From Dictyophora rubrovolvata (taxonomy: Eukaryota; Basidiomycota; Agaricomycetes; Phallales; Phallaceae): a stretch of 64,000 bases of DNA. The notes beneath the pieces are model-generated. The model saw nothing but the letters and a program-made list of their open reading frames with translations. It was not told the origin of the DNA and did no database searches. Location of the stretch: positions 2,728,001 through 2,792,000 of the forward strand of contig CP114119.1 of the NCBI GenBank assembly GCA_029959195.1, read 5' to 3'. The position numbers and the translations under genes are program-made. Positions 5,718 to 58,724 of the stretch are shown here, piece by piece (positions within the stretch are counted from its first letter, which is position 1; every line of letters starts with the position of its first letter).

Positions 5718-5965
5718 GATTGGCTGTTTGGGGAGAAGTTCTTAAGCTTTCTCGAGATCTGCTGCCTATATCTTTTTCTTTTTCCTCGTCTCGGAGCTCG
5801 ACGTCATAGCACCGAACGCAACTACGAGGTTGTGTCACGCATGACACATACGGATTTTCCCGAGCTCCCCGTCCATCAGCACTCTCGTTCATCTCCACGG
5901 ATACAGGATTTGGATCTTGTACAGAACAATATTCTTTCCTTTTTTATATCTATTTACTATTCACG

Positions 5966-6771
5966 ATGCACACTGAAGATGATGGTCTTGACCGACGCTT
6001 GAAGCAAAACTCTGAAACTGTGATCTCCGCCCTGAGAGACCTGGATAAACCTAAAAGCAATAGAAAGACCGGTAAAAGCACCCCAGATATTCTAGAAGTC
6101 GAAGATAACGAACAGCGGTTAGCGAGACTTCGTAGGTTTTTGACTCATGGATTAAGAAACACACTGATGATGGCTTTAATGGTCTATGAAAACAGAAAAT
6201 TTACTTGAAAATGTGGATTCAAAATTACATTCGTCTTCAACATCGTCACAGTCAATTCCTATTCAATTTCCTCTGCCGCAATCTTCTTCGCGACCGCATT
6301 TTGTGCCCAAAAGCGAAGGCATGAATTTGTTCTTTCCGTCATCATACATCTAAAATTCTTCATAATTATCTAGTTTTCTCGAGAATTGAAGCCTTTCTTC
6401 CACAAATAGCTCAATCTAATGCAGAACTTCTAAAACAAGCACAGGATGATCCAACAAGCGTTGACATCGAAAACATCGCTAAGGATCAAAAAACTTATAT
6501 CGAAATGGTAGATACATTTACTCGTTCTGAATGTCATGTTTCTCCCTTTAGTTTACAATTCTCATATTAGAACCTGGGCTTGGGCGTTTTTGAAAAGAAA
6601 AGAAGACGAAAAGCTAATGATGGTACGGCCTCGGACTCGGACTCGGCCTCGGACTCTCATTCATCGCATTCTTCGGCCTCACATTCCAAGTCGAATTCAA
6701 GTTCCGGATCGGACACTGACTCTTATGATTCTGGTAAAACGTCGAATGTTACCTCGTCGTCAAGTAGATAG
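5966..6771 (+). CDS. NOPCHAP1-like snoRNP assembly cofactor, left copy
   Basis: Four exons (5966-6131, 6196-6318, 6374-6507, 6571-6771) encode about 207 residues. The centre, RIEAFLPQIAQSNAELLKQ then DIENIAKDQKTYIEMNLGLGVFE, matches the core of human NOPCHAP1 (C12orf45, DUF4598), which delivers NOP58 to the R2TP chaperone for box C/D snoRNP assembly. A basic KKRRRK stretch and an acidic Ser/Asp tail follow. Compared with the right-arm copy, it starts five codons later (ATGCACACTGAAG) and its tail ends early at SSSSR. The second intron has a GC donor (6319-6320) where the right copy has GT. It still reads as an open gene, but may be the degenerating member of the pair. Confidence 0.65.
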
Positions 6772-7765
6772 CGGACCCCTGGTGCCACCAAAGAAGACAG
6801 AGAAGAGACACACTTTTTTTTTGAAACTTGATCACCTTGACCTGGAAACGGCTCTCAACGAATAGATGAACCCGTGATGCGAGGAAACAATCATCCACTC
6901 CGCCAAAGAATCTATGGAGATTGACGCTTTTGGTAACTCACAGTCCGACTGAACTAATGGCGAGAAACCTTGACACTAAGTCGCTTTTCTATCTATGAAA
7001 ATAGTTTGCGAAGATTTTATGAGTCAAAAAAAGATCAATATTAGGGTGTCAGATTGCGAGCGAAATCTCGACATTATTGTCCAAAACATTAGGCATGTGA
7101 TCCCCAAACAGATGTTATGGAACCCAATGGCGTCCTTCAACAGTGCAACTCGAACTAGCAAAGTCTAATCAGAACTAGACAAAAAAATATTTGAAGAAAG
7201 AGAATGGGCTCGGATAAACGCCCATTCGTCACGACGCGTGTGCCACGGAATCAATTACCGTTTGGTCCCGTACATCACGTGATTAGATGCGCACAGTTCA
7301 GACTGTTTGGACCTGTTTGGCTGTTCTATTAATTCTCTGACTGAATACTTACAGAATCTACTGGTACAGTCGTATATGTACGTACAGTCTGTGTCGGTCT
7401 GTGTCCGAGGTTAAAAGTGTGTTATATCTTTATCAGTCGAGACAAGGAGATTTTCCGAAATGACAGCGCGACACGAGACGAGGAACCGGTGATTGCAAGC
7501 CGTCGGGCAGTTGGGGCAGTTGCTTTTTCCTCTGGATCTATAAACGCAAGCGTAAACATCTGTGGTATGAAATCCTCTGCTTCAATCGTCCCCCATCATT
7601 ACCTAAAATAATCAACTAGGCTTGAAGTTCAGTCAGACCAAGTCAGGCCCGACCCTCATAAAAAAGACGCACGGACAGCTTTAACCTCCTCGGAAAACGT
7701 TTGCCGGAAACGTACCTACCTTACCTACCACATCGTCAGAATATCCTCTCCGTTTTTCGCCCACT
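6772..7765. other. Left-arm intergenic region, partly unique
   Basis: From 6767 to about 7274 the sequence has no counterpart in the right arm and no recognisable gene. From a CACGTG at 7276-7281 to the P450 start it is homologous to 52525-52002 and is the P450 promoter region. Confidence 0.5.
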
Positions 7766-9900
7766 ATGAATCCACTGATCGACGCGAATCTGCAAGCAAT
7801 AGTCGCCGCCGTCCTTGTCTGCGTAATATTATACGTTACGTTCATCAGACGCGATCCATATGTGAAGGCTTTTGAAGTCTGGTTTATCTTCGTTTTGGTT
7901 CTGACTACAGCGTAAATTGCAGGCTGATATTCCTGCCATTGGTAGCACCAACTTTTTCCTGTCATATATTGACACCGTCAGATATATAATTCAAGGACCG
8001 AAGCTGCTTCAGGAGGGATACGACAAGGTAATTATGAATAAAGACGTCGCCACAAGATTGTTTACGCTTTTCCCTTCTTTTCAAAGTTTAGCAAAAACGT
8101 CGGCATCTATCGCGTTCCTACTTTCTCTAGCTGGCATGTTTTCGTATGCGGTGACAAGCTAATAGACGAGCTGAGGTTCATGAAAGGGCAACAAGACTTG
8201 TCTGGTCATGAGGCAGGCAAAATTGTAAGTTTACCCTTCCTTTTATCGCTTTATTTTTCTCTCTCCCTTAAATCACGTTCAACAAGATGGTATCGGGCGA
8301 ATACACGCTAGGACCACAAATTTTCGAAAATCAATATCATATGAAAGTTATGCGTCACCGTATGACTAAAGGTTTGGATGCGTGGTTCGAACCCCTCAAA
8401 TCTGAGATTATGATTGTGCTCGAAGACCTGGTGCCATCAACAAGAGGTATATACGTCTCTTCCTTTTCCAGAAAAACTCTGTACATGTTGCTCATATGTT
8501 GAATTGTTATTTGTAGATTGGACGTCGGTTGGTATATATCACGCGAGTCAACTACTTGTTGCGCGTAGTGTCAATCGTGTTATCGTTTCCGACCCCGCTA
8601 TTTGTATGACGAATCATTCTTCTTATATGTATGACTCACCCTAAAATATACATTTTACAGATCGAGATTCAAATTACTTAAAACTAATGACTGGTTTCAC
8701 TATGGACGCAGCTCTTGGTGCGTTTATTTTAGGGTTCTTCCCCACCCCACTGAAGACGTGAGTATCATTTTCTTCCTGCAGTCATGCAAAGAGTCAGTGT
8801 GATAACCAATTTTCTAGACTTGCGCGAAACGTTTTGACCAATATCCCTCGAGCTCGAGCATTGGCAACGCAAATTTTACACAACACCGTCGCAGAGAGAA
8901 AAGCAAAAGTGGATGAGCATGGTTCGAGTTATCCGGATAAACCAGTCCGTGATGATGTGTTGTTTTTTTAGAGAGCCGGTCAATTAACGATGCCATGTAG
9001 AATGACATACTTTCATTATTGATCGATGAAGCAGACGACGAGGGACGTACAGAGGAAGCGCTAGCACACCGTGTGCTGGTAATGAATTTTGCTGCTGTTC
9101 ATTCGACCTCGATGGTAAAACCAGTAACAAATATCTTCCATCTTATATGTTTATTAACAAGATATTTTGTTAGACGTTGTCACTCTTACTTCGAGATCTA
9201 GCCGCAAGGCCTGAATATTTGAGACCGTTAAGAGAAGAAGCTGAATCCGTGATCTCGAAATATGGATTTACGAGATCGTCGCTAGCGCAGCTGCATAAAT
9301 TGGAGAGCTTCATTATGGAGTCTATGCGCGTGAAAGCACCGCGAGTAGGTGAGTTATGGTCTCGTATATTTTGGAAACGTAGTAGTAATCAAGAAACCCA
9401 ACGGTGTTTTGTTTGTCATGAACAGTCACAGGACACCGATGGAGTATGAAAGACCATGTCTTGTCGAACGGTGTACGCATACCCAAAGACACTATGGTAA
9501 TCATTCCCATGGGTGCACGCCACTCGGACAGTACTCTATTCCCCGACCCGTCCAAATTTGACGGATTCAGGTTCTGTAAGAACGACGACAACGATGCCAG
9601 TCACTACTTTACCACATCAAGTTCATCGTTTATGTTCTTCGGCATGGGAGAAAGTATATGGTACGTTTCCTTGTCGAGTTCAGTATATATCCCCCGAGCC
9701 TTCTATTGATATTTTACAATACATATAGCCCAGGGAGATTTTTCGCTGCTACTTTTCTAAAAATCGTTCTTGTTCACTTTATGTTGAACTATGATGCTCA
9801 ACTCGATCCTGCTTTTCACCCGCGTGACTATTGGTTAGGGCCGGATATTGTTCCCGGTAGCACAGCCACGTTTTTGGTACGGGAGAGAAAGAGGGAATAG
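7766..9900 (+). CDS. Cytochrome P450 monooxygenase, left copy
   Basis: About twelve exons encode a P450 of roughly 500 residues. The N-terminus has a membrane anchor (IVAAVLVCVILYVTF) and then RRDPYADIPAIGSTNFF. The I-helix region is NFAAVHSTSM, with an S-T pair where many P450s have a threonine. The K-helix ExxR is in FIMESMRVK. The heme loop reads FGMGESICPGRFFA, with the cysteine codon split TG|C by the last intron. The overall pattern (KLIDELR, KVMRHRMTKGLD, MGARHSD) resembles fungal ent-kaurene-oxidase-like P450s. The right-arm copy at 49877-52001 has the same introns. The next gene downstream on the same strand is an NmrA-type reductase. The substrate is unknown. Confidence 0.85.
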
Positions 9901-10311
9901 GTGATGATTGCATTGGATGGTTATTGCTTGTGAATGAGGAAATCTTTATTCGCAGTCTTTATTGTTGGGCGTTAATGCTTAGTAAAGACGATTAGTCACG
10001 ACTCGAATGTCTCGCCACTGAGTGTTTTTTTACTCTTATTCACGCATGAGCTTTTTTAACTCAGCAAGACATTTATTTTTGTATATAAGGTTTTATTTCT
10101 TTATTTGTAATACAGCTTCTTTTGCTCCAAACGTTATTTAACAACATTTATGTTGACTCGTTTAACTCGAAGATCGTAAAACTCACTGTCACCTGAGAAC
10201 CAGACTCGGTCTTGAATATGTGGGTTGTAAGCAGGAATATTAGTACAAAGATGTGTACCAACCGCAATAGCGCAATAATGAGCGTATCCGAAATCAATGT
10301 CGAATGATCAC

Positions 10312-10336
10312 AACACGTACATCGAAATTACGTGTT
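10312..10336. promoter_or_regulatory. Conserved palindrome A, left arm
   Basis: Perfect 8-bp arms AACACGTA / TACGTGTT are separated by 9 nt. The same arms and spacer length occur at 49395-49419 in the right arm. Placement upstream of the NmrA gene suggests a dimeric transcription-factor site containing ACGTG cores. Confidence 0.45.
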
Positions 10337-10386
10337 CATGGAGAAAGCTGAACCCACGGGCTACTGAAGATAACAAAACGGCAACG

Positions 10387-10407
10387 TGACGCGTCCGAAA
10401 CGCGTCA
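10387..10407. promoter_or_regulatory. Conserved palindrome B, left arm
   Basis: Perfect 8-bp arms TGACGCGT / ACGCGTCA flank the 5-nt spacer CCGAA. The right-arm copy (49315-49335) keeps the arms with one mismatch. Each arm contains TGACG (bZIP/CRE-like) overlapping ACGCGT (MluI-box-like), so a bZIP or MBF-type factor is possible. Confidence 0.45.
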
Positions 10408-10416
10408 TCTCCCAAA

Positions 10417-10453
10417 TTCGGCTGTATTACCAATTTGTGCCTGACATTACAAA
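10417..10453 (+). promoter_or_regulatory. Shared NmrA upstream element, copy 1
   Basis: The element reads TTCGGCTGTATTACCAAT, then TGTGCCTGACATTACAAA. Closely related sequence lies upstream of NmrA copies 2, 4 and 6, which points to a common promoter ancestor or a functional site with a CCAAT core. Confidence 0.45.
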
Positions 10454-10612
10454 TCTCACTGTTTCGAAACATCTTGTCATTCCATGCTGTTTGTGTAACT
10501 GCACCATGTCCCGATTCGTCAAGGAAGTTTTCAGTTCTCACTGTGTCCACAAAAAAAGCTCCGTGGCTGGCGTACTACGACGACGGCATGGGAGTTTAAG
10601 CGCAAGATAAGG

Positions 10613-10619
10613 TATAAAA
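10613..10619 (+). promoter_or_regulatory. TATA box of NmrA copy 1
   Basis: TATAAAA lies 37 bp before the ATG. The spacing is nearly the same in all six copies. Confidence 0.55.
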
Positions 10620-10656
10620 CTCTCCAGCAATTCATTTTTCATCAACACAAAACATC

Positions 10657-11818
10657 ATGTCTTCAGCCGCTGCCCCCGCAAAATCGACTGTTTTCGTCCT
10701 GGGGGGAAGTGGAAACACTGGATCGTATGTCGTTGAAGGTCTTCTCCAATCAGGTCATTTCGTACGTCAATATTTCAATGATGAGCATCTTTATCTATCA
10801 AAACACTCAGAAACTGCTATTCTCTCATTCAGAATGTCATTGTTCTTACACGACCTGGTTCTGAAGGAAAGGCTAGGATTCAATCTCTGAAACAAAAAGG
10901 CGTGGAAATTCGACTCGGGGATTTTTCTCAAGCCTCCGTTGCCGAGTTGGAGAAACTTCTCGAAGGGGTTAATATCGTTCTCAGTCTCGTTAATGTCATG
11001 GTACTAGATGAACAGAAGAAGGTTTTCCAAGCTGCGAAGAATGTTGGCGTTCAACGCGTTGTACCGTCTGAGTTCGCGTTTCCCTGTCCTCCGGAGAGGG
11101 GACCCTATTTAGTTAATAAGGTACACTCGGTTTATCTCTCTATTTTGGCGAGTCTGGGCTGATTTTTTCCCGCAGAAACGGGCCATAATATCCTTCATAA
11201 AAGAATTGGGCATCGGTTACACTATTATTGACGTAGGCTGGTGGATGGAATTGGTCCTTCCGTTTCCTCCCAGTGACCAAGGTCCTGTCGCTGACATGTC
11301 CCGCACTTTTGTTGGTGCTGGTGATGTCAAAATTGCCTTGACCTCCCGTGTGGACATCGGTCGATTCGTGGCTCGTATTCTTGCCGACCCGCGCACACTC
11401 AATAAACATGTCTTCTGCCATGCCGAGGAACTTACACAAACGGAAGTTTACCGTATCGCCGAGGAAATTAGTGGAGAAAATTTCGACTTGGTTAAGAGCC
11501 AGGTACGTAATATGCTTTCGTTTGGAACTTCCATTCTACTTCTCGAGTTCCGGACAGTTACCTGCGAACGTTCTAACGGAAGAGGTCCCTCAGACGAAGG
11601 AACAGTTCAGGAGCAACCCTTCGGACATGCAACTTCGCTTCAAACTAATTTTCCAGGAATATCTCAGTTCATTATTCGTTTTTGGGGATAATACCCTCGA
11701 AACTGCGAAAAGGCTGGGAGCCTTGGATGCACGAGCGCTTTATCCAGATTTTGAGCCGACCAGGCTTAAAGAATATGCTGTGGAATTCTACAAGAAACGA
11801 CCAGATTTTGAATATTAA
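10657..11818 (+). CDS. NmrA/isoflavone-reductase-like NADPH oxidoreductase, copy 1
   Basis: Four exons encode about 326 residues. The Rossmann start VFVLGGSGNTGSYVVEGLL carries the GxxGxxG NADPH-binding motif. VVPSEF and the following lysine-rich turn (VNK-KRAI) match the position of the catalytic lysine in plant isoflavone/phenylcoumaran benzylic ether reductases. YTIIDVGWWMELVLP and RVDIGRFVARILADPRTLN are typical of the fungal NmrA-like branch. The C-terminus ends EFYKKRPDFEY. Introns follow GHF, VNK and KSQ, as in the other copies. It should be a soluble cytosolic NADPH-dependent reductase; the substrate is unknown. It lies downstream of a P450 on the same strand, and the pair is mirrored in the right arm. 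Confidence 0.85.
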
Positions 11819-12124
11819 AGTCTGTGGGAAGTTATCCCAGTACGACTCAATGTGTATGTATTAGCGACGGCGACGAACGATACTTAATACATGGTGAACT
11901 TGAAGTAGGTTCATGAATTTAAATACCATGAATGGGGTGTAATCATTTTGTATTTCTAAACTTACAGTTGTTTTCAACTTTTTGGTTAATGTCATTTCGC
12001 CACGTGCAGTAATATTCTCTTCAGGACCGAAGATGACCACTGGTGTGGATGAGGCGGTTCCGAAGAAATGAGGGAATGGAGACGATATGTGCGAGTTTTG
12101 CTTACTTTTGATTGGCACAGATTA

Positions 12125-12161
12125 GTTACTGTTACCACCAATCTATGCCTGACGTTACAAA
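12125..12161 (+). promoter_or_regulatory. Shared NmrA upstream element, copy 2
   Basis: It contains GTTACCACCAATCTATGCC followed by TGACGTTACAAA, an evident relative of 10417-10453. It is kept although the gene below it is decayed. Confidence 0.4.
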
Positions 12162-12514
12162 TACCATTATTATTCGAGCCATCTAAGCCCGCCTTTTGTA
12201 AATGTGAAACAAATACCTTGCATTCAATTGGTTCAGCACGGTACGCTATAGCATCTCTCTGACTAACACGATGCCCTTGACAGCATGTTCCATAGATTTA
12301 CCGCCCCAAAAATTAGTCATCATTTTGCAAAAAAACATCTGGAAATGTGGCGCGGATCCACTGAAGTGGTCATGTGCATTGACAAGCTTCTCTCCTGACA
12401 TAAAAATATATGGGGCTATCGAACCCAAAGCTTCGCTGACTGTAGTACTGCATCTGATTCTTCTTCATCTGATTTCAACTCTAATCTTTCAGAACATGTA
12501 AGCGCCAGGTTGGG

Positions 12515-12521
12515 TATAAAA
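12515..12521 (+). promoter_or_regulatory. TATA box of NmrA copy 2
   Basis: TATAAAA lies 33 bp before the copy 2 ATG, at the position seen in the intact copies. Confidence 0.45.
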
Positions 12522-12554
12522 ACCACTGTCTACTCATTCCTAATTAAGTACACC

Positions 12555-14085
12555 ATGTCCACAGCAGTCACTTCTAATACTAAATCTACCGTTTTCATCT
12601 TGGGCATCGTTTCGGGGGTGGCAATACTGGACTATTCGTTGTTGACGGTCTCCTTCAATCAGGGAATTTCGTAAGTTGATGATCTATCCCCATTGATAGA
12701 ATGCTCAAAGAAATTGTTAAGAATGTTATTGTTCTGACACGTCCAGCATCAGAAGGAAAACAAAGCATCCAAGCTCTGAAGCAGAAATGCATAGAAATCT
12801 GACTTGGGGACATTTCTAAAGCTTCCGTCGCTGGACTGGAAGAACTATATTTCTCGTATTTTATCCCATCTCTTGTGTTTCCCTCTCCTTCTGTATTCCC
12901 ATTTTCCCTTCAATGGGCGCTGAGTGCCCGTTCTCATCAGAGCCATGGCCTAGGCCCTGGCTAAAAGTCCGGGACCGGCGCGTATCCGCACCCAGTCCAT
13001 GAACTGAAGGCCGCATGTGGCCTTCGCCGTTTTTCATAGTATATAGTTAGTAGCCCTAGAGGAGGGATCCCTAAGTTTGTTCTCTTAGGATCCCCTCCCT
13101 CTAGGTGAGTTAGTATTATTCCTAGAATATATTTTGCTTAGGATCCCCTCCCTCTAGTCTGAGTGAGTAGCCCTGACAACTGGAAGAACTTCTGAAGAGA
13201 GGTGAATATCGTTTTGAGTTTGATCAATGTCACTGCGTTAGAGGAGCAAAAAAAAAATTTTCCAAGCTGCGAAGAACGTAGGTGTAGAGCGTGTTGTACC
13301 ATCCGAGTTCGCAATTCCTTGTCCTCCGGGAAGAAAAGTTCACTTAATTGACAAGGTATTACCTTCTTTCTGCATCTCTACTTTGACTGCAACAGGTGAA
13401 CTGATTTCCCACAGAAACTGGCCATAAGACCCTTTATAAAGGAGTTTAATTGGACATGGGTTACACTATTATTGATGTTGGCTGGTGGATGGAATTGGTC
13501 CTTCCGTATCCGTCTAGCGAGAAAGGCATTACTGCTGATTTGACACACATTTGTCGGTGCTGGTGATGTTAAAACATGTCATAACTCGCACGGATATCGG
13601 TCGGTTTGTGGCTCGTATTCTCACGGACCCGCGTACACTCAATAGCTATAGTATGTCTTTTGTCATGCCGAAGAAGTTACACAGACAGGGGTTTATCGCG
13701 TTGCTGAGGAAGTCAGTGGAGAAAATTTCAACTCTGTGAAGAACCAGGTGAGTTACAGTCGTTTGTGTAATATCAACATGCTTTCAGAATCTCTCTATTT
13801 AACTATCTAATCACGAATAGTTCAAGCTATCTGCGAATGATTTGGCAGAATTGATTTCACAGGAGAGGAACTTCAACACTTCGGGGACACAAATTAATTT
13901 CAAATTAATCCCACTGGAATATTTCAATTCGCTATTCGTCTTCGGGGACAACATGTGCACCCTTAAAGGTGCAAAAAGGCTTGGAGCTTTGGATGCACGA
14001 ACCCTCTACCCAGATTTCAAACCGATAACATTGAAGGAATACGCCGTAGAATTCTACCAAAAATCGAATATGCAATCCCGTAGAA
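12555..14085 (+). pseudogene. NmrA/isoflavone-reductase-like pseudogene, copy 2
   Basis: The start MSTAVTSNTKSTVFILG and later stretches of all four exons are recognisable, in the order of copy 1. The gene is broken several ways. Extra bases disrupt the glycine-rich NADPH loop. A TGA replaces the Arg codon in the EIRLGD motif. A 332-bp insertion splits exon 2 inside GLEELLK. Small indels disrupt the EEQKKVFQ region, the start of exon 3 (TTTAATTGGACATGG), the THTFVGAGDVK stretch and the C-terminus after EFYQK. Long pieces such as VGWWMELVLPYPSS and GRFVARILTDPRTLN remain. It is no longer able to give a full protein. Confidence 0.85.
12835..13190. mobile_element. 332-bp unclassified insertion with 12-bp target duplication
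   Basis: The sequence ACTGGAAGAACT occurs at 12835-12846 and again at 13179-13190. In intact paralogues the corresponding codons (L-E-E-L) occur once, so this is a true target-site duplication and the insert is 12847-13178. The insert has no coding capacity. It carries the motif GGATCC(C)CTCCCTCTAG twice in direct order and once inverted nearby (around 13057-13157), giving hairpin potential, plus a GC-richer segment (about 12930-13030). A 12-bp duplication suits a SINE-like or other non-autonomous element. No poly-A tail or tRNA-like box was seen, so the family stays open. Confidence 0.7.
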
Positions 14086-15843
14086 TCCAGCACTGCGGCT
14101 GTTGAGAGTCGGTAGCTGCGCAATTCAAAGTCCAGACGTCTGTACTCGTTCTTGGCATACAGCTGGCTGAAGCAGTTCATTTAGTTTATAGTATGTTTAA
14201 TACAAGTAATTGTGCAGTAATATATTCAATAGTCTACTTGGGGACAGTGCGAAGGTCAGAATAAAGCTTTCACTACTGGTAGCACTCTAAAAAATACCCA
14301 TGAAATTTATTGCAATGTTGGGATCGCTCTGTTTATCTCGGAAGCCAAATCTAATAATTCTTTGGAAATCATTTGGACGGTGTTATAAGGAGTCTGGAGG
14401 GGAGCGGCGAGCCAGACACGCCATCAAGGCCATCAACAGCTTGGCTCAGCAGGATCAGCGCCCGTATTCGATACCTCTGGGCTTGTAAGTAATTCAATAC
14501 CCTCTGTATGGACAGACACTGGTGATATTTAGTAGGGACTAACCTCAACGCCATATTCGACGCGTCACAGATTGGGTACTACGTGGATCTATCCATCATG
14601 TGCTACGCAGACTGGAGGTTGCAGACGTAAGTTTTCTTTATATCTCAAAAAAATTTGTTGTTAACGATACATATAATATCTGAGGGCATCTATCTGCCAA
14701 CTCCCAGAGACACCTGCCAGCATATCACCTGGACCGTTTCTCCAGTTGATGTGAGGCAAATCTTCAGGGAGTCAGGCTTCAAGTTTGCCCACACTTCCCA
14801 GTCATGAGTCCGCTCAATCTTCTGAGCCGTACTTGGGAGTTGATCGCGATCCGATAGCCTACACTTTGCAATTGTCAGAGGCTACGACAACCACGACGAA
14901 TATACCCCACTGCGCATCATATGTTTCTTGTACCCCTTCATTCCATTCCTCCACTCAAGCTCTATTCTCTCAACCAAGCAAACATAACCGCTCGCTACTC
15001 TCCCGTCGACGCCCGATCCACACCAATTCCAACACACCAATTCCAACACAACTCGGCGTCCAACGTTCAGTCTGAAACGTCATTAGTGCACATGCGCTTG
15101 AAGCGCCCGTTCATCTACAGCTCTATGACACGCTCTGGTGCTCACTGCTGAACACAAGAAGACATCAATGGTATAGTTACCAGGACGAGTTCTTATATAG
15201 CTTTCCTGGCGGATGTCCTCAGTATTTAGCCTTTATATCATAACATTATTGCCATCTTGACGACAACATTTAGTTTGTGCACAAAGGGCGAGAACGATCG
15301 ATAAATAAAAAAAACACCAACATCACCGGGAGCATATATAAGCACTTTTCTTATTGTATCCATTTTTGGTCGTTGTCAGATCTCATCAAATTGAGTAAAT
15401 TTACGTCACAGATTGACTGATAATTTTTTTCCATTGTGCTCCGTAAACGGGAACCGAGTTGGACCCTTTGGACATCATGATATGCCGATACGTCTTCACC
15501 CTGAAATTTATAGCTAGGGAATAGAACCTGGTTAACTCAACTTCCTTTGTTTCTTTGGATGGGAAGGTTCGGGTCTTTTCAGGCTGAAACCATTTCTGGG
15601 ATCATTTATCGAAGAGCCTGATGAGAGAAGTATATGTTAGAAATTTATAGAGAAATTTTTTGAAACAAAATTCTAGTTTGAAGACCTTGCTTACTTTTGA
15701 GCGCTTGAGTTTTTGTCTAGTGGCTATACGACGCGCAGTAATACTTGACCCTTTCAAACTCCGCCGACTCGACTCATACTCATTTCCGTCTTCAACGCCA
15801 CACGGAACAACGGCATTGGTGATTCGAATCCGCTCTGTCAATC
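14086..15843. other. Gene-poor stretch with coding-like debris
   Basis: At 14370-14830 short stretches look exonic: a plus-strand run reading ARHAIKAINSLAQQDQRPYS, then TNLNAIFDASQIGYYVDLS with a GT-rich break after it, then a tail ending in TGA near 14807. No family is recognised and no full gene can be joined. I see nothing in the rest, which is AT-rich. Confidence 0.3.
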
Positions 15844-17742: not shown

Positions 17743-18090
17743 TTGCTTAAAATTCACTTCCATAAGATTATCGCTTCGCGCGTCAATCCTCTCCTTCAAG
17801 TTGTCGATCAGCGTCAACCCATCATAGATAATCTTGTAGATGCAGCAGATGCAGCAAAGAAGAAGACGAATAGTTGGAAGGTGGCGCGAAAATACAAGGA
17901 GTATGTTTTTGTTCCTTCTTCCCTCGGCGGTCTCATAATGTCTGATCAGGGTTATGACTAAGTGTCGGGTGGCCCTTGACGAGCTGAAAGATCAAAGGGC
18001 GACAAAGACCCCAAAAGAGTTGCACAAGTCAATTGACAGTGGACACTATTTCAAAAAAAAAGCTCACAGACGCAAGAGAAGGATTTTTTG
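17743..18090 (+). CDS. Possible small hypothetical gene
   Basis: A two-exon model starts MLKIHFHKIIASRVNPLLQV. It joins KYKE to VMTKCRVALDELKDQR across a GTATGT...GATCAG intron and ends in a basic stretch, KKKAHRRKRRIF. It is helical and polar with no family I know. An open frame from 18157 to 18453 (MEKKPKSEKTQNDVSS to SIWGVTRM) may be a further exon, but no join keeps both in frame. This could be a gene fragment. Confidence 0.25.
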
Positions 18091-18156
18091 TGAGTAACTA
18101 TATTTTTGCTCTACCACTAGTTTTCATCCCACCACAGGCAGTTAAATGAGATAGGA

Positions 18157-44244: not shown

Positions 44245-44251
44245 TTTTATA
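44245..44251 (-). promoter_or_regulatory. TATA box of NmrA copy 4
   Basis: TATAAAA on the minus strand, 27 bp before the ATG. Confidence 0.5.
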
Positions 44252-44607: not shown

Positions 44608-44647
44608 TTTGTATCTCCAGGCACAGATTGGTAACATGACAGCCGAA
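44608..44647 (-). promoter_or_regulatory. Shared NmrA upstream element, copy 4
   Basis: On the minus strand it reads TTCGGCTGTCATGTTACC, then AATCTGTGCCTGGAGATACA, clearly related to the elements of copies 1, 2 and 6. It lies about 390 bp before the ATG. Confidence 0.4.
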
Positions 44648-47885: not shown

Positions 47886-49038
47886 TTAAAATTCAAATTC
47901 TGGTCGGTTCTTGTAGAATTCCACAGCATATTCTTTAAGTTTGATCGGCTCAAAATCTGGATAGAGCGCTCGTGCATCCAAAATCCCCAGCTTTTTCGCA
48001 GTTTCGAGGGTATTATCCCCAAGAACGAACAACGAACTGAGATATTCCTGTGAGATTAGTTTGAAGCGAAGTTGCATGTCCGAAGGGTTGTTCCTGAATT
48101 GTTCCCTTGTCTGAGAGACTCCTTCCGTTAAAACGTTCGCAGGTAACTGTTCATAATTCGAGAGTCAAATGGATGCTCTAAACGAAAACTTATTACGCGC
48201 CTGGTTCTTAACTGAGTCTAAGTTTTCTCCGCTAGCTTCCTCAGCGATACGGTAAACTTCTGTTTGTGTAACTTCCTCGGCATGGCAAAAGACATGTCTA
48301 TTGAGTGTGCGCGGGTCGGCAAGAACGCGAGCCACAAATCGACCGATATCCACGCGAGAGGTCACAGCAGTTTTGACATCACCAGCACCGACAAATGTGT
48401 GGGACAAGTCAGCGACAGGGCCTTGGTCACTGGAAGGAAACGGAAGTACCAACTCCATCCACCAGCCTATGTCAATAATAGTATAGCCGATGCCCAGTTC
48501 TTTTATGAAAGATCTTATGGCTCGTTTCTGTGAAAAAAGAATAAACCCGACTTGCCAAATTGGAGATACAGATCGGGCGTACCTTATCAACTATATGGAG
48601 TTTTCTCTCCGGAGGGCAGGGAATCGCGAACTCAGACGGTACAACGCGTTGAACGCCAACATTCTTTGCAGCTTGGAAAACCTTCTTCTGTTCATCTAGT
48701 ACCACGACATTAACGAGACTGAGAACAATATCAACCCCTTTGAGAAGTTTTTCCAAGTCGGAAACTGAGGCCTGAGCAAAGTCCACGAGTCGAATTTCTA
48801 CGCCTTTCTGTTTCAGAGATTGAATCCTAGCCTTTCCTTCAGAACCAGGTCGTGTAAGAACAATGACATTCTGAACAAGAGAATAAAAGTTTCTGAGTGT
48901 TTTATAATATTAAGATGCCCATCATCAATCTACGAAATGTCCTGATTGGAGAAGACCTTCAACAACAAACGATCCAGTGTTTCCACTTCCCCCCAGGACG
49001 AAAACAGTCGATTTTGCGGGGCCAGCAGCTGAAGACAT
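47886..49038 (-). CDS. NmrA/isoflavone-reductase-like NADPH oxidoreductase, copy 6
   Basis: The right-arm counterpart of copy 1, intact with four exons. The start MSSAAGPAKSTVFVLGGSGN is almost identical to copy 1. VVPSEFAIPCPPER, YTIIDIGWWMELVLPFPSS and RVDIGRFVARVLADPRTLN follow, and the end is EFYKNRPEFEF. The promoter shares the two palindromes, the 37-bp element and the TATA box with copy 1, so both should respond to the same signals. It precedes the right-arm P450 in mirror order (P450 upstream, reductase downstream, same strand). Confidence 0.87.
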
Positions 49039-49075
49039 GATGATTTATGTTGATGAAAAACGAATTACTGGAAAG

Positions 49076-49082
49076 TTTTATA
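49076..49082 (-). promoter_or_regulatory. TATA box of NmrA copy 6
   Basis: TATAAAA on the minus strand, 37 bp before the ATG, the same spacing as copy 1. Confidence 0.55.
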
Positions 49083-49268
49083 CCCTAGCTTGCGCTTAGG
49101 ATTTGGAAACGAGTCTTGACGAAAATGTGATCGTGCCGGCGCCGTCGTAGTACATATGTCAGACACGGAGCTTCCTTTCAGAGCTGAAAACGGTTCTTTG
49201 ACAAATCGGGACATGGTGCAGTTGCACAAACAGCACAAGAGATGACAAGATGGTTCGAAACAGTGGGA

Positions 49269-49305
49269 TTTGTAACGTCAGGTACTAATTGGTAATACAG
49301 CCGAA
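49269..49305 (-). promoter_or_regulatory. Shared NmrA upstream element, copy 6
   Basis: On the minus strand it reads TTCGGCTGTATTACCAAT, then TAGTACCTGACGTTACAAA, nearly identical to 10417-10453. Confidence 0.45.
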
Positions 49306-49314
49306 CTTTGGAGA

Positions 49315-49335
49315 TGACGCGGTTCGGACGCGTCA
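49315..49335. promoter_or_regulatory. Conserved palindrome B, right arm
   Basis: Arms TGACGCGG and ACGCGTCA with a 5-nt spacer (one mismatch). The left-arm counterpart at 10387-10407 is perfect. Confidence 0.4.
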
Positions 49336-49394
49336 CTCCGCCGTTTTGTTTTGTCGTTAGGCTTCAGCAGCCCGCGGGTTCAGCTTTTTCCATG

Positions 49395-49419
49395 AACACG
49401 TAATTTCGATGTACGTGTT
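49395..49419. promoter_or_regulatory. Conserved palindrome A, right arm
   Basis: Perfect arms AACACGTA / TACGTGTT with a 9-nt spacer, as at 10312-10336. Confidence 0.45.
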
Positions 49420-49876
49420 GTGATCATATAAAGCGTGCTTTGTCGACATTTATTTCGGATACGCTCATCATTGCGCTGTCATCACGGCTGGTATACATCT
49501 TTGTACTAATACTTATTTCAGTACGCCCCAGCCGCACGTACGTTGACAGAACTACGGCTATGCTTTACATCTGAATTAAAGATTCTTGTGACAAGAAGCC
49601 CGTCGCCTGTTTCATATTCGTCATGTGTGTTCAAGACTGAGTCTGATTCTCATGAGAATGAGTTTTATAGTGCTTCTGTCGATTAATTCGACGATCTTCG
49701 GGCTCAAGACTAATGAGGCTAGATGTGATCCTACATATCAGCAAAAAAACAACTACAAAATATAAATATTAAATAGGACAAGTCAACATAAAGACTTCAG
49801 ATGAAAACTTTATTTAAATAGAGAGATCCGCATTCACAAGCAATGATTACCCACTTCCGTTGAATCCGGTCATCAG

Positions 49877-52001
49877 CTATTCCCTCTTTCTTTCCCGTAC
49901 CAAAAATGTGGCTGTGCTACCAGGAACAATATCCGGTCCAAACCAATGATCACGCGGGTGTTGGGTAGGATTGAGTTGAACATCATAGTTCAACATGAAG
50001 TGAACAAGAACGATTTTTAAAAAAGTAGCGGTGAAAAATCTCCCTGGACTATATCGTAAAATATCAATAGAAGGCTCGGGGTATATACTGAATTCGACAA
50101 GAAAACATACCATATATTTTCTCCCATGCCAAAGATTAAAAACGATGAATTTGATGTGGTAAAGTAGGGAGTCTGGCTGGCATTGTTGTCGTCGTTTTTG
50201 CAGAACCTGAATCCGTCAAATTTGGACGGGTCGGGAAATAGAGTACTGTCAAAGTGGCGTGCACCCAAGGGAATGATTACCGTAGTGTCTTTGGGTATGC
50301 GTATACCGTTCGATAAGACATAATCTTTCATGCTCCATCGGTGTGCTGTGACTTTTCAGAACAAAACATGGTTGAAGTTTTTTGATTCCTGCGTTTTTGG
50401 AAATACAAGATTACAACTCACCCACTCGTGGTGATTTCATGCGCAGGGACTCCATAATGAAGCTCTCCAGTTTATGTAGCTGCGCTAGCGACGATCTCGT
50501 AAATCCGTATTTTGAGATCACGAATTCAGCCTCTTCTCTTAACGGTTTTAAATATTCAGGTCTGTCGGCTAGATCTCGAAGTAGTAATGATAACGTCTAA
50601 AAAACATTTCGTTAATGAACATGAGATGGAATATATATGTTCCTGGTTTTACCATCGAGGTCGCATGAATAGCAGCGAAATTCATTACCAGCACACGGTG
50701 TGCTAGCTCTTCCTCTGCACGTCCTTCGTCGTTTGCTTCATCGATCAATAATGAAAGTATGTCGTTCTACATTGAGTATCACTAATTGTCCCTCTCTGAA
50801 AAGAAAAGAAAAGTCACGGACTGGTTTATCCGGATAACTCGAACCATGCTCATCAACTTTTGCTTTTCTCTCTGCAATGTTGTTGCGTAAAACTTGCGTT
50901 GCCGATGCTCGAGCTTGGGGGATGTTGGTTAGGAAGTTTCGTGCAAGGCTAGAATATTGATTATGACACTGACTCTATGCATGATTGGGGAAAGAAAACG
51001 ATACTTACGTCTTCAATGAAGTGGGGAAGAAAGCTAAAATAAACGCACCCAGAACTGCGTCCATAGTGAAACCAGTCATTAGTTTTAGGTAATTTGGGTC
51101 TCGATCTGTAAAATATATCTAAGGGTGAACCGTACATATAAACAGAGCGATTCGTCATACAGATAGCGGGGTCGGAAACGACAACACAATTGACACTACG
51201 AGCAACAAGTAGTTGACTCGCTTGATATATACCAACCGACGTCCAATCTACAAATAACAATTCAACATATGAGCAACATGCACAGAACATTTTTGGAAAA
51301 GGAAGAGACGGATATACATACCTCTTGCTGATGGCACCAGTTCTTCAAGCACAGTCATAATCTCAGCTTTGAAAGGTTCAAACCACGCATCCAACCCTTT
51401 AGTCATACGGTGACGCATAACTTTCATGTGGTATTGATTCTCGAAGATCTGTGGTCCTAGCGTGTATTCACCCGATGCCATCTGGTTGAACGTGAATAGA
51501 GAGGAAAAAAATGAACCGATGAAAGGAAGGGTAAGCTTACGATTTTGCCTGCCTCAGGAGCAGACAGGTCTTGGTGCCCTTTTATGAACCTCAGCTCGTC
51601 TATTAGTTTATCACCGCACACGAAAACATGCCAGCTCGCAAAAGTAGGTACACGGTAGATACCGACGTTTTTGTTAAACTAAGAAAGTGTAAACCGTGTT
51701 GCGGCAGCGATGTCTTTATTCATAGAGGCCTCAGTTACCTTGTCGTATCCTTCCTGAAGCAGCTCCGGTCCTTGAATCATATACCTAACAAGGTCAATAT
51801 ATGATAGGAAAAAGTTGGTGCTTCCAATGGCTGGAATGTCAGCCTAGAGTTTACGCTGTAGTAAGAAAAAAAACGAAGACAACCCAGACTTAAGAAAGCC
51901 CTCACACATGGATCACGTCTGATGAACGCAAAATATAATATTACGCAGACAAGGACAGCGACGGCTACCGCTGGAGGATTCGCGTCGATCAGTGTTTTCA
52001 T
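49877..52001 (-). CDS. Cytochrome P450 monooxygenase, right copy
   Basis: The mirror copy of the 7766-9900 gene with the same intron positions. The start MKTLIDANPPAVAVAVLV includes a membrane anchor, followed by RRDPCADIPAIGSTNFF. KVMRHRMTKGLDAWFEP is kept. ExxR lies in FIMESLRMKSPR and the heme loop reads FGMGENICPGRFFA, its cysteine codon split by the last intron. The sequence NNASQTPYFTT before the heme loop has two residues more than the left copy. All splice sites I checked are GT-AG and no stop interrupts it, so both copies appear functional. An ER-bound monooxygenase using a P450 reductase is inferred from family; the substrate is unknown. Confidence 0.85.
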
Positions 52002-52566
52002 GGTGGTGAAAATGAAGAGGATATTCGAACGATGGGGCACGAATGTTTTAATTAGGCGCGTTTCCGGCGAACTGTATCTGAATTACGGTTTCCGAGGAGG
52101 TTAAAGCCGTCCGTCTCCTTTATCAGGATCAGGCCTGACTTTGACTGATACCTCAACCGACTTCAAGCCTAATTGGTTTGTTTTTTGAACGATAGAGAAC
52201 AATTGAAATAGAAATTTTCCTACCGCAGATGTTTCCGTTTACGTTTAGAGATCCAGAGGAACTTACAACGAATGTGTCCCCAGTCCATTTTTCCTGAGCC
52301 GGGGAAGCAACTATCCCGACGGCTTGCAATTACCGGTGCCTCGCCTCGTGTCGCGCTGTCAGATCTGTTAGTCTCGTGATAAATTATAAGTAACATAAAT
52401 TTTACCTCGGACTGACACAGTCTACGTACAATGTACCAGTAGAGTCTGTAACCATTACAGCAGAAGGTTGGTGGAACAGCCAAATAGGCCCAAAGTTTGG
52501 TGTCACGCTCTAGGTCATCACGTGGCATATGAGTAATACTTGCAAACATACAGCCCGATCTGCAAT
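52002..52566. other. P450 promoter region, right arm, up to the breakpoint
   Basis: Homologous to 7275-7765 as far as a CACGTG at 52519-52524. Beyond it the sequence is unique and the tRNA gene starts 43 bp later. Confidence 0.5.
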
Positions 52567-52662
52567 GGTGAGGTGGCCGAGTTGGTCTAAGGCGTGAGAC
52601 TAAGGTCTTAATTACCTAATCTCATCTCTTCGGAGGCGCGAGTTCGAATCTCGCCCTCATCA
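52567..52662 (+). tRNA. tRNA-Leu(AAG) with intron
   Basis: Acceptor stem GGTGAGG pairs with CCTCATC (one G-U). The D arm is GCCGAGTTGGTCTAAGGC. The anticodon stem TGAGA/TCTCA encloses a loop CTAAGG..A with anticodon AAG. A 13-nt intron (TCTTAATTACCTA) sits one base 3' of the anticodon, the canonical place. A long variable arm typical of Leu follows, then the T arm GCGAG-TTCGAAT-CTCGC and discriminator A. A run of five T at 52665-52669 is a good Pol III terminator. Confidence 0.93.
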
Positions 52663-55600
52663 CTTTTTCGTGTCCTCCAGCACGCAACCAACCCTAGCGA
52701 CTCCCTTCATTGAAAAGCTTTTGTACAGTATTTCAAAGTCACTGGAGACAAATAGCTGTTCACATAACCTTTTGGGGAAGAGGTATACCAGTGCATTTTT
52801 ACATCTCGAAATTGTCTCGAAAGTTCTGGTACCAACCCGGTGCTCTTTCCGAATTTTGCAGCAGGGCCATATCAAAAGTACGCCACATTACAGCTGTCAT
52901 GGATTACTGGGTATCAAGAATGTTTCCTTTTACGTTGTGTCGTCCTATGTGTTTGGCCACATAAGTATCCAAAATTAACTTTCTCAATTCATTATTAATA
53001 GGAAATCATTAAAAGGCATGGTTTAATTCACATATCACAGCGTTCATGAGAAATTAAGGTTAAGTCTTAAGTACTTAAGTTCCTAAAGCATGACTTGCTC
53101 TGAATCGCATATGGTTAAGATTTATCGACTATCGACTATCGTATTGAAGCCCTTAATTAATTCTCCTCAGAATGTTTCTTAATACAAAACTAAGCACCCT
53201 AGCTTCATGTGCCCCAATCAAAAGAAGATTCCCTTTGAACATTTGCAATACGAGCACAGCTGCAGCTGCCTTTGGCACCTACATCAGACTCGAGTAGAAG
53301 TGGCGATTTGATCAACAGCAGCCTTAGGCTTCTTTACTCCCCCCAATTATGGCTTCCTAGGAACTGCAACTGCTTCATACATTCAAACGAAAAATTAATG
53401 TGCGGGCGTACGAGGCCCTTCCGGAGTAATCCGGCGTACGTCGTGTGCACGAGTTCAAGCTGCAGTTGACTCGGACGGCAGGTCCGTTTTTCAAGTGACA
53501 GCTGCCTTTCTAATTTATCGCCTACGAGGACATGGGCTTGTGAATTTATTAGGCGAAAAATGGCTGCATGGTGATGAATTTTCTCGCTCCCTTTGTAGCT
53601 GATATAACTCACCTCGGTGGAGTTAATCGAAAGTAGCGCTTGTAGGGTTAAGGAAACTACAAGGGTTTACCATTTGGAAATAGAATGACCAGGACCCTTG
53701 ACTCAGGTTTGTTGAACGTTGGACAATCGCGAGTCATACATGCTTCGCGCTAGTTGTATGATTAACGACTCGGAGGTAATTCCATATTTTACCGATTCAA
53801 GATTTTTAGCAGAATGCAAAGTTTGATTAATTGAGAAAATTAGGGTCTCCACAAACGAAGTATCGAATGGCATGCAAACTGAAGTTGGAGCATGTCTGCT
53901 AAACGTGGCGACGGTGGCGTGCAGCAAGTTCGGTTATTGGTAACCATTGGGTCAACAGCTTTCGTTTTCAGAAATAATTGTTACTTATCGAAATCGACCG
54001 AGCTTTCCGATTTAGAAATCCGGTAAGAGATTGACTCTAAAGCGACTAAACCTCCAGGTATCCACAACTGAGTTAATTACCACCTGGGGCCTTAGTACCT
54101 ACCTCGATTGCAGACTTAACTAGTTACAGATCGATCGATCTACGACTTATAAATCCGATGGGACAGCCAACTGGGACATCACAGCGAAATCCCGGCGTAA
54201 TCTTATAATAACCTAAATCTAGTTGTAAAAGAACAAAGTTAATACGCCCCCCTCCTCGATGGAGGGGAAGATGCCTTGAGCACATTATTTAATGATACGT
54301 CCCGGTGATGGTGATCTACGTTTTTAATCCAAAATGGAACAATATAGAACCTTACGAAACGCACCTTGTACCACGTACAAATACAAGGCACTTATTTGAG
54401 TTCGTTTAGCGAAGCAGATAATTAGCTGATTATGAACCCGTGCTTTCTCTCTACTTTAGGCAACGTCTTGCCTAGCGTTGGGAAAACCGTTTAAAAAAGC
54501 AGTTATCAAGCCCCTATCGTAAGGAACCACCAGTAGTTACCAAAATTCAGCAGTTGTGACGGCAGCGCGGGAAGAGCCTTAAAAATAGCAGTTATTATCC
54601 ATAGCCATCGCCGCTTTAAGAACTGTGAGCTGTAACCTCTTGTGGTTAGGCTTGTCACCGTCCTATCATGTGCCAGTACTTGCTAAACAATTGGAATTTA
54701 CCTAGTCTGCTCAAGAGCGACGTTGTCGTATATGGAAAGGCCATCAACGCAGTGTTTCATTAACCTGTCAAACATAGTTCCTTACTTTTGTGGAGGACGA
54801 ATTTCGGTTGAACAACTTCTAAACCCACGCAATGTACCTGATTAGTCTCTAGTAATCCACGTTTCAATAAAGCTCATTTAAGGTCACGAAATATACGCAT
54901 TTGAGGTCGCTCCGGCTCGTGCCATCATTATTGGTTAATCACAAAGCAACACTCAAACCACGATGATGATAAATGTCAATGTGTACTTTTCAATCACTCA
55001 CATTGCAGATACTCCATCATCGGGTTTCAAAGTGGCTCCCTTCACATTTAGACAGGCCGATTCATCTTGTCGCTCAAATTGCGCATGTGGTGCACGCACC
55101 GACATCGAACACGTTCTCACCAGCATTTAAACTCCCTTTCCTCATTGGGAAATGAAGGGTAGGTAAAGCATTGCTTCGTCGTGCTGGGAACCTTGAAGGA
55201 GGTGAATAACTGCTGATTGTTTTAAAATTAAACAAAAAGATCGGGCACTCGGACTGCTTGAATGATAACCCCATATTTGGAATAACGTAAACGACGAAAT
55301 GCAGTGTCTGCGATAGGAACTTCCCGCGCTGGTATAAGTATATATTTAGTGCTAAGGACTAGAATTATTATGCGCGTTCACTGACACACCAAGATACAAA
55401 GAAAACTCTGCTTAATCATTGAAGCTTCTCATCCACATGGTATACTGCAGTGGCAGATAAGTTATTATCCTTCTTTCGTGCATCTATAAGTTAGACGCCT
55501 AATTTCTGCGATGCCCGCAGAAGTCGAAGCTGTCGAAGGTCGAAGGGCGAAGGGCGAAGCCACTTTAACGGCTAATTCCATGGCATGGACAGCGTTAGCA

Positions 55601-56776
55601 AAAAGGAGGTGCCAGTAGGTGCCAGTGGGGGAGATTGTCTACCTTTTAAATTCATTGCCCACTCATTCTTCCATAGCTTTGTAAATCTGTCAACGCCACA
55701 GGATGTGTGCAATAGATATCATCAAAGACTTTTTCTTTTGAGACGGGATAAGCAAAATTTACAGAGAAGCTGTCTTTTTTGATGCTCGTATATGTCATCA
55801 TCCAGACTGGTTGTCGGATCGGTTCAACTTCGATAAATTAGGGAGCGTTATCAGAGTTCAGGGACGTACGTCGAATCAGAACGAATAACGCCTATCGGAA
55901 ATGCAGATCATGGTATGCATCATCACCGCTTTTCCCACCCTTGGTAGCTGAAAAAGGAAACGCTGAACAGACGAAAAGGTGCATAAACAAGCAATTTAGA
56001 CAGCCAATTGGAAAGACGAAGATAACAAGGTAACCGCTATTCCCTGATATCAAGCACAAGAGGCTGTCAGGTGAACTTGAGGTATTTTTACATCATTTGA
56101 AAGGTTCTTCGAGATTGTTGAGTCAAATACGTTCATAACTCTTGACAAGAATTCACATTTGATCCACGCTGCATATGACATACAGCTCGTGCGCAAAACA
56201 ACGACACAATGGCATAACCGACACTTTAATAATGATACATCATTTTTCATGGAACTGTCACAAATGTAAAAGAACATACATTGCATGTGTCGCTGACGCC
56301 ATACACAGCTAAGTGAACTCCAAAAGAGAATCAATGACAGCAAGTTACATATCTTGGCTTTCCAATAGCCTATACACATTGTATGCAAATGATATGTCAA
56401 GTGCGATACGCCGAAGCTGATAAGGAATAACCATAAAATTTTGACCGTTTTAGACGGCTGGGATAGCATTGTTAAACACCAGTTGTGGCGAGAAAAGTTC
56501 GCGATAGATAAGCCATTTGAAGTATACCTATTCAAGAATCCGATTAGGCGCGGCTCGACGATCTAAGAAAAGCAAACCGTCGGTCGTCTCAAAGCGTTTC
56601 AAGCTAGCTTTATATCAAATCCGGCAGAGCGCTCACATGCAGCAAGAATGAGTGATGATAACAAGAATACCCATGGACAGAGCCGAAGAATATTTACGAA
56701 GCTGTCCCAGTTGGTCGAATAAAGGAGTAAATGTTTACTGTATATAGTTTTAAATCAGCGATTGGAGTTTTTTAGT
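52663..56776. other. Right-arm-specific block without a recognised gene
   Basis: About 4.1 kb absent from the left arm. It is AT-rich, with no long family-like ORF. The longest open frame (161 codons, minus, 56050-56535) is Cys/Ser/Leu-rich and unrecognised. A small hairpin CCCCTCC/GGAGGGG lies at 54249-54267. No terminal repeats were found by eye. It is either a large insertion or ancestral sequence lost from the left arm. Confidence 0.4.
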
Positions 56777-57678
56777 TTATGACGGAGGCGATGATGACGA
56801 AGAAGACGAAGAAGAGGACGATGATGCTTCTTCGGAACTTGACGACGAAGTAACATTTGACGTTTTACCAGAATCATAAGACTCAGCGTCCGATCTGGAA
56901 CTTGAATCTGACTTGGAATGTGAGGCCGAAGAATCCGATGAATGTGTTTCGTCGTTCTCGTTTGAGTCAGAATGAGAGTCCGGGGCCGAGTCCGAGTCCG
57001 AGGCCGTAACATCATTAGCTTTTCGTCTTCTTTTCTTTTCAAAAACGCCCAAGCCCAGGTTCTAATATGAGAATTGTAAACTAAAGGGAGAAACATGACA
57101 TTCAGAACGAGTAAATGTATCTACCATTTCGATATAAGTTTTTTGATCCTTAGCGATGTTTTCGATGTCAACGCTTGTTGGATCATCCTGTGCTTGTTTT
57201 AGAAGTTCTGCATTAGATTGAGCTATTTGTGGAAGAAAGGCTTCAATTCTCGAGAAAACTAGATAATTATGAAGAATTTTAGATGTATGATGACGGAAAG
57301 AACAAATTCATACCTTCGCTTTTGGGCACAAAATGCGGTCGCGAAGAAGATTGAGGCAGAGGAAATTGAATAGGAATCGACTGTGACGATGTTGAAGACG
57401 AATGTAATTTTGAATCCACATTTTCAAGTAAATTTTCTGTTTTCATAGACCATTAAAGACATCATCAGTTTGTTTCTTAATCCATGAGTCAAAAACCTAC
57501 GAAGTCTCGCTAACCGCTGTTCGTTATCTTCGACTTCTAGAATATCTGGGGTGCTTTTACCAGTCTTTCTATTGCTTTTAGGTTTATCCAGGTCTCTCAG
57601 GGCGGAGATTACAGTTTCAGAATTTTGCTTCGAGCATCGGTCAAGACCATCATCTTCAGTGTGTATTCCGGAATCCAT
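56777..57678 (-). CDS. NOPCHAP1-like snoRNP assembly cofactor, right copy
   Basis: Four exons on the minus strand, with the same intron positions as the left copy, all GT-AG. The start is MDSGIHTEDDGLDRCSKQNS. The DUF4598 core reads FSRIEAFLPQIAQSNAELLK then DIENIAKDQKTYIEMNLGLG, aligning with human NOPCHAP1. It is followed by KKRRRK, which could act as a nuclear localisation signal, and a Ser/Asp/Glu tail ending in a long serine run and PPS. It should act in the nucleus as a cofactor bringing NOP58 to the R2TP/HSP90 machinery for box C/D snoRNP assembly. The longer tail and canonical donors suggest it is the ancestral, functional copy. Confidence 0.75.
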
Positions 57679-58724
57679 CCGTGAATATTAAATATGGATA
57701 TAAAAACGGAAAGCAGATTGTTCTGTACAAGATCCAAATCCTGTATCCGTGGAGATGAACGAGTGCTGATGGATGGGAGCTCGGGAAAATCCGAATGTGT
57801 CATGCGTGACGCGCGATGCAACACATTCTCGCCATGAACTGGAGGTGCATGGTTTGCGCCGAACCTACATCTCCATATAGCGGTAGTCTTAAAAGAGGCG
57901 AGAAACTGCATTCTCGTTACTTTTTACTTTTACACCTGCAACTGCATCTATGATCTTACCACTCAAATTTTGCATAGATCATGTTTTGCGCGGAGCAACC
58001 CGTCGTGGACTCGTGGTGAGTGATTTATACTAGTTCGTGTCATTTCAATTATTTCAAACTATCCAAATTACAATTAGGAAAAATCCATATCTCATTTAGC
58101 ATTTGCATTGAGGCCTTGAAGCTTGACGTCTTCGTAGGACCTGTGACGCCGCGGTCCTGCGTGTTCAACGCTGACAAGTTCATTCCTTGGTGGTAAGGTC
58201 ATCATTTAGTATAAGGAACGCAGCAATATAATACGCCGCTCGGTAGATGCGAAGCCTGTTCTATAACGGCCCTATTGGCGAAACGACGTCAACGAGTCGC
58301 AAGTCTTATCCCGAGGAATTTTGTCTATGTTTGTTTGCACACCCTTCCCCGCTTACCCTATCTGTCTCAATAGGATGGAAGGGAAGAACCTGATGCATGT
58401 ACGAAGCACGAATGCTACAGTCTTTCGCGCGAATTTTGTTCTTCCTTGCTGTTGAACCTCCAACTAGGGTGCGTGTCGCCAGGGTCTAATCGTAAAAAGC
58501 TAACGATCTCAAAGTATTGAAGTCCTCATTCAAGGAAACAAACCCTGTTTTTTCGATTCAATAGTCACGTTCATCATGATTCTGATGGGGACACATAAAA
58601 TAATCACGGCCAAATATATACTAATGGTACATATTTGAATCACTCATTGTTTTACAAAAAGGTAGCCGCACTGAGATAATTTCCAAATTCTTGAAGTTGA
58701 AATCAACCAAGCCAGGAGTTCAAC
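57679..58724. other. Intergenic region outside the right arm
   Basis: The first 130 bp match the left-arm NOPCHAP1 promoter (to about 57805). The rest is unique; no gene is seen. Confidence 0.45.

Follow-up and report, generated by a model that had tools for sequence, protein, structure and literature searches.

Segments that invert recurrently have kilobase-long, near-identical arms. In the emerin case, filamin and emerin are reportedly enclosed by long near-identical repeats. A survey of human inversions mediated by inverted repeats gives signs of recurrence for 11 of the 16 analysable inversions, and for the emerin region it cites Small et al. 1997 (PMC3961182). In Drosophila, inverted duplications occur at inversion breakpoints, as described for O7 of D. 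subobscura (PMC7584159). Literature searches aimed at such a locus in fungi gave nothing on it among the matches listed. In this study, we analysed a window of 64,000 nucleotides (C3:2728001-2792000; coordinates below are window positions) from a genome of 28.2 Mb in 11 contigs, in which a NOPCHAP1, a P450 and an NmrA-like reductase gene stand in mirror order on both sides of a core of about 35 kb. It is a known kind of structure, an inverted segmental duplication, with an unusual divergence pattern. The account that we favour, with somewhat better than even confidence, is a layered one, in which an old P450-NmrA copy was followed by a later NOPCHAP1 copy, in at least two steps.

An inverted segmental duplication around this core had been proposed in a sequence-only reading of the window, and blastn of the window against itself bore this out. 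Three collinear minus-strand blocks (each E 0) follow each other in the mirror order NOPCHAP1, P450 and NmrA, close to where that reading had placed them, and the observation is confirmed, far above chance. The inverted duplication includes noncoding DNA, as introns and parts of the intergenic DNA align on opposite strands. The blocks and the gene copies in them are the following.

5834..6765, plus strand: arm 1 outer block, NOPCHAP1; pairs with 57810-56837, 92.3% over 977 columns including gaps
56837..57810, minus strand: arm 2 outer block, NOPCHAP1, from the blastn self-comparison
7306..9950, plus strand: arm 1 P450 block; pairs with 52494-49817, 81.4% over 2746 columns
49817..52494, minus strand: arm 2 P450 block, from the blastn self-comparison
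10238..12088, plus strand: arm 1 NmrA block; pairs with 49511-47594, 81.4% over 1954 columns
47594..49511, minus strand: arm 2 NmrA block, from the blastn self-comparison
12089..47593, no strand: enclosed core with chitin synthase, NTE1, a bHLH-like stretch and NmrA copies B-E
5966..6771, plus strand: NOPCHAP1 copy 1, 4 exons, 207 amino acids; PF15370, 70 bits
56777..57678, minus strand: NOPCHAP1 copy 2, 4 exons, 239 amino acids; PF15370, 54.8 bits
6321..6622, plus strand: 302-bp perfect match to 57311-57010 on the minus strand
7766..9900, plus strand: P450 copy 1, 11 exons, 501 amino acids; PF00067, E 2.5e-43
49877..52001, minus strand: P450 copy 2, 11 exons, 503 amino acids
10657..11818, plus strand: NmrA-like reductase copy A, 4 exons, 326 amino acids; PF05368, E 9.5e-30
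47886..49038, minus strand: NmrA copy F, 4 exons, 326 amino acids, closest to A; GC donor in intron 3

The Pfam scan covered both NOPCHAP1 copies, P450 copy 1 and NmrA A, and agreed with the gene identities given earlier; P450 copy 2 and NmrA F were identified by full-length alignment to the scanned copies. The gene models are predictions, with splice sites set by hand and made consistent between the arms. All arm gene models (the NOPCHAP1, P450, and NmrA A and F pairs) read through with no stops. The model introns are short (54–77 bp), the P450 genes have ten of them, and the P450 models contain unusual predicted splice sites, namely AAG acceptors and a GTCCGT donor. After the 5.8S gene, the 5.8S/internal transcribed spacer stretch of this genome carries GAGTGTCGTGAA, which we take to be a basidiomycete-like motif, and the short introns and ten-intron P450 genes agree with it.

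The earlier reading described one duplication with arms of about 90% coding identity. The identical coding nucleotides number 1342/1503 in P450, 886/978 in NmrA and 601/621 in NOPCHAP1. One duplication with arms so uniformly alike is not supported, as the noncoding DNA of the NOPCHAP1 block is about sevenfold less diverged than that of the P450 and NmrA blocks. Noncoding mismatches numbered 9/311 in NOPCHAP1 (introns and upstream) against 386/1912 in P450 and NmrA together (Fisher test, p 1e-17), and the introns alone gave 3/182 against 148/766 (p 1e-11). Divergence along the arm is expected to be uniform after a single-event inverted duplication, and here it is not; a single uniform duplication is not favoured because of this noncoding contrast. 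Synonymous divergence (dS) by NG86 and YN00 was 0.06 and 0.05 for the NOPCHAP1 pair, 0.31 and 0.23 for the P450 pair and 0.23 and 0.18 for the NmrA A/F pair. The ratio of nonsynonymous to synonymous divergence (dN/dS, by NG86) was 0.40, 0.21 and 0.27, respectively, and the frames of the P450 and the A/F copies are open. Between the P450 block and the NmrA block, noncoding mismatches, counted over introns together with downstream and upstream sequence, did not differ (223/1076 vs 163/836, p 0.53), and fourfold sites were similar (30/189 and 23/149), which suggests that one event can account for both; intron mismatches were 102/594 and 46/172 of the aligned sites. Judged from these alignments, the NOPCHAP1 pair is younger than the P450 and NmrA blocks, or homogenised.

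Within the NOPCHAP1 block, the 27 mismatches in 929 aligned bases are distributed as 17 before position 6321, none in 6321-6622 and 10 after it. The 302-bp identical run spans one complete intron and most of a second, and on the assumption of uniform rates its probability is 0.0008 over the whole block, or 0.003 when positions past 6630 are excluded. Under this assumption, the run suggests a conversion tract. Gene conversion had been proposed for the arms in general, and the support for it is suggestive and confined to the NOPCHAP1 block. The arm length sufficient for recombination that the earlier reading claimed likewise applies mainly to the NOPCHAP1 stretch, with perfect matches of 302, 91 and 80 bp; no perfect match elsewhere in the arms exceeds 67 bp. 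This stretch would be the only good recombination substrate in the arms.

Homology at the block edges was judged by the local alignment score against the shuffle mean (40 shuffles for the arm-1 versus arm-2 spacer). The spacers between NOPCHAP1 and P450, about 0.54 kb in arm 1 (6772-7305) and 4.3 kb in arm 2, scored 23 against a shuffle mean of 23.7, the outer flanks beyond the NOPCHAP1 blocks 22 against 22.7, and the inner flanks just past the NmrA block 18 against 20.6. Hidden homology in spacers and flanks was rejected, as three of the four tests were at shuffle level; the exception is the gap between P450 and NmrA (49 against 20.1), so a shared remnant persists there. By these local scores, no diverged homologous sequence was detected beyond either NOPCHAP1 block edge. 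The claim that the intergenic DNA is repeated together with the genes was partly right: the NOPCHAP1-P450 spacer is without detectable homology, and the P450-NmrA spacer differs over most of its middle part. The lack of diverged shoulders beside the NOPCHAP1 segment favours its later insertion as a unit over conversion of an old duplicate.

The same edges bear on an assembly artefact, in which two haplotypes were joined mirror-fashion. Nothing beyond the mirror order itself speaks for it. On the other hand, no homology was detected past the outer or inner edges (NmrA family apart), two blocks are about 20% different at noncoding sites, the spacers differ between the arms, and the 3.1-Mb contig continues through the 60 kb examined on each side without mirror homology. 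We consider such a misjoin very unlikely.

The layered duplication would have arisen as follows. In the older step, a P450-NmrA pair beside an existing local NmrA array would have been copied inverted across the core, giving the 81% blocks, and both pairs would then have been retained under purifying selection. In the much younger step, the NOPCHAP1 segment of 0.93 kb would have been copied into the mirror position, probably from arm 2 to arm 1, and the arm-1 gene would have lost its 3' end during copying. The older arms perhaps guided this later copying, and the NOPCHAP1 copies may afterwards have exchanged their middle sequence by gene conversion. NOPCHAP1 copy 1 ends with SSSSR and a stop, whereas copy 2 runs on into a longer serine-rich tail; the donor of intron 2 is GC in copy 1 and GT in copy 2, which has GT in all three introns. 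Copy 2 looks like the parent because of its longer tail and GT donors. These two were the only NOPCHAP1 loci found in the genome. Human NOPCHAP1 helps bring NOP58 to RUVBL1/2 (PMC9406135).

Several points weigh against this account. The fourfold-site contrast is weak (NOPCHAP1 7/92 vs 53/338, p 0.06), and the serine-rich NOPCHAP1 tail has 10/143 mismatches, so divergence within the block is uneven. The GC donor is no proof of decay, as NmrA F has one too, and the copying direction is probable rather than fixed by an outgroup. Moreover, it would take either a coincidence or guidance by the older arms for an independent second copy to land adjacent, in mirror order and orientation. In a different explanation, NOPCHAP1, spacer, P450 and NmrA were copied in one inverted duplication, and conversion then kept only the NOPCHAP1 pair alike as P450 and NmrA drifted. 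The mirror order and orientation of three genes then come free, the 302-bp run with its more diverged edges resembles a conversion tract, and the weak fourfold contrast together with the uneven NOPCHAP1 divergence would fit repeated short tracts. However, diverged shoulders are expected beside the tract and none were detected on either side, the arm-1 spacer needs a deletion plus replacement of about 0.54 kb, and there is no clear reason for converting this block alone. We regard this explanation as possible but doubtful.

The P450 paralogue on contig C7 served as outgroup. Branch changes in the P450 exons numbered 67 in arm 1 and 66 in arm 2, those in the P450 introns were 45 and 24 as raw counts, and those in NmrA were 69 for A and 45 for F (p 0.03). 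The larger number of NmrA changes in A suggests that arm 1 may evolve slightly faster than arm 2. The C7 paralogue was rejected as the source of the block: its DNA is about 66% identical, and blastn at E 1e-3 matched neither NmrA nor NOPCHAP1 in the surrounding 10 kb.

The core is not free of the duplicated family, as four of the six NmrA copies in the window lie in it. The left-hand copies A and B are on the plus strand, and the right-hand copies C, D, E and F on the minus strand. The four core copies are listed here, C, D and E from self-blastn and alignment.

12555..14075, plus strand: NmrA copy B, a pseudogene with frameshifting indels, stops and a 333-bp insert
40785..41945, minus strand: NmrA copy C
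43060..44217, minus strand: NmrA copy D
45670..46820, minus strand: NmrA copy E

Relative to the other copies, a T run in copy C is longer by one T, and this copy may be frameshifted. Elsewhere in the genome there are three less similar NmrA-like loci, two on C5 and one on C7. In coding columns, the A/F difference is 0.094 and that of the remaining 14 pairs 0.23-0.30, which suggests that the NmrA relatives on either side of the core split before A and F did. A mirror continuing into the array, with B as the counterpart of E, was rejected: B and E differ by 0.296 and B differs from any other copy by at least 0.256, against 0.094 for A and F. The array also bears on the possibility that the 35-kb core was inverted through staggered breaks or template switching, which left inverted P450-NmrA copies at both of its ends. 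The sharpness of the tested edges is in keeping with such a scar, but it leaves the younger NOPCHAP1 block unexplained, and it does not simplify the array, in which other NmrA copies flank the core on both sides and split before A and F. This origin seems improbable to us.

Divergence falls from the inside to the outside of the mirror, and this is the basis of a further view, in which the mirror grew outward in strata and the homology of each layer guided the next copying outward. The old inverted NmrA paralogs (B versus the others, 26-30% in coding columns) would have seeded the P450-NmrA copy, and the P450-NmrA arms (about 20% noncoding) would have seeded the youngest and outermost NOPCHAP1 copy (about 3% noncoding). 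The innermost layer is the least certain, since NmrA B has weak support for its tree position (63%) and, being a pseudogene, may evolve faster. We hold the strata view only tentatively, as rather unlikely.

Two dispersed elements lie in or near arm 1.

12847..13179, no strand: abundant dispersed element of 333 bp within NmrA B, flanked on each side by the 12 bp ACTGGAAGAACT
9963..10146, no strand: dispersed element of about 184 bp in the gap between the arm-1 P450 and NmrA blocks

The 333-bp element has at least 40 other long copies in the genome at 93-96% (40 of 426 candidates were scored), and a search of it with simple A-box and B-box patterns found nothing. Copies of the 184-bp element are on C8 (three), C9 and C10 at 89-92%, with weaker pieces on C4, C6 and C9. 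This element starts 13 bp inward of the arm-1 P450 block and has no counterpart in arm 2, which is consistent with its insertion after the older P450-NmrA copying. Neither element is at the outer or innermost mirror edge, and arm 2 was found to contain no copy of them; from these positions, a duplication carried by a transposon is not favoured.

Two more features belong to arm 2.

52495..56776, no strand: arm-2-only spacer between the NOPCHAP1 and P450 blocks
52567..52663, plus strand: tRNA-Leu (AAG), by ARAGORN and Rfam RF00005, 73 bp outside the arm-2 P450 block edge

The tRNA near a block edge is one case and no proof of anything. At the outer edge of arm 1 (5815-5850) there is a small perfect hairpin, GTGTCA-CGCA-TGACAC, the inner part of which is retained in arm 2. 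Of the core genes named in the sequence-only reading, chitin synthase (PF01644) and NTE1 (NTE_Ploop PF24179 and cNMP_binding PF00027) were confirmed by Pfam. The bHLH gene is a bHLH-like stretch seen by eye in translation at about 35.6-36.0 kb, and two open reading frames scanned near it, 34523-35578 and 35282-35713 (other strand), had no Pfam match. In the NTE1 region, 25291-25630 is a 340-bp match (94%) to C1:166327-166666. A search with the core 18500-38000 listed only this C1 match and not the core itself, and it is an unreliable negative for the uniqueness of the core.

When 184 kb around the window were compared with themselves, all repeat pairs of at least 200 columns were in 5.8-74.1 kb, except one pair of 223 columns to the left (76%). 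A direct tandem duplication of about 7.6 kb lies to the right of arm 2. It pairs 58611-66231 with 66464-74104, the match being split into three pieces of 77-84% identity, and its second unit is outside the window. The open frames in it were judged by eye as a membrane protein, a P450 and a GMC-type oxidoreductase. On the left, the unit at 1757-4951, which ends 0.9 kb outside arm 1, recurs at C3:784-790 kb and C8:1632-1646 kb, where the long matches are at 79-89%. These further duplications on both outer sides suggest that, within the 184 kb, the mirror sits in a duplication-prone stretch.

At present, the layered duplication would provide extra gene copies kept by selection (P450, and both NmrA A and NmrA F), together with a short inverted match as a possible mediator of inversion or conversion. 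The 302-bp perfect inverted match, with its halves about 50 kb apart, is a concrete site for seeking inversion of the chitin synthase/NTE1 segment. Should relatives confirm the layers, the locus would document in readable form the stepwise growth of inverted segmental duplications, and would be a test case for old inverted paralogs attracting new inverted copies.

This locus resembles the human inversions mediated by inverted repeats in having a gene-bearing segment between inverted copies and a possible substrate for inversion or conversion. It differs in that no second orientation of the core was observed. Compared with recurrently inverting segments, two of the three blocks are at 81% with perfect matches of at most 67 bp, and about 0.93 kb is at 27/929. 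With O7 of D. subobscura, the locus shares inverted copies at the segment ends and a local history of earlier duplications, but here there is no evidence that the core ever inverted, and the layers are of differing divergence. The locus also resembles tandem gene-array expansion, as in the NmrA and P450 families, with NmrA C-F head to tail on one strand and the direct tandem duplication on the right. In contrast to such arrays, the A/F, P450 and NOPCHAP1 pairs of this mirror are inverted and at least 35 kb apart.

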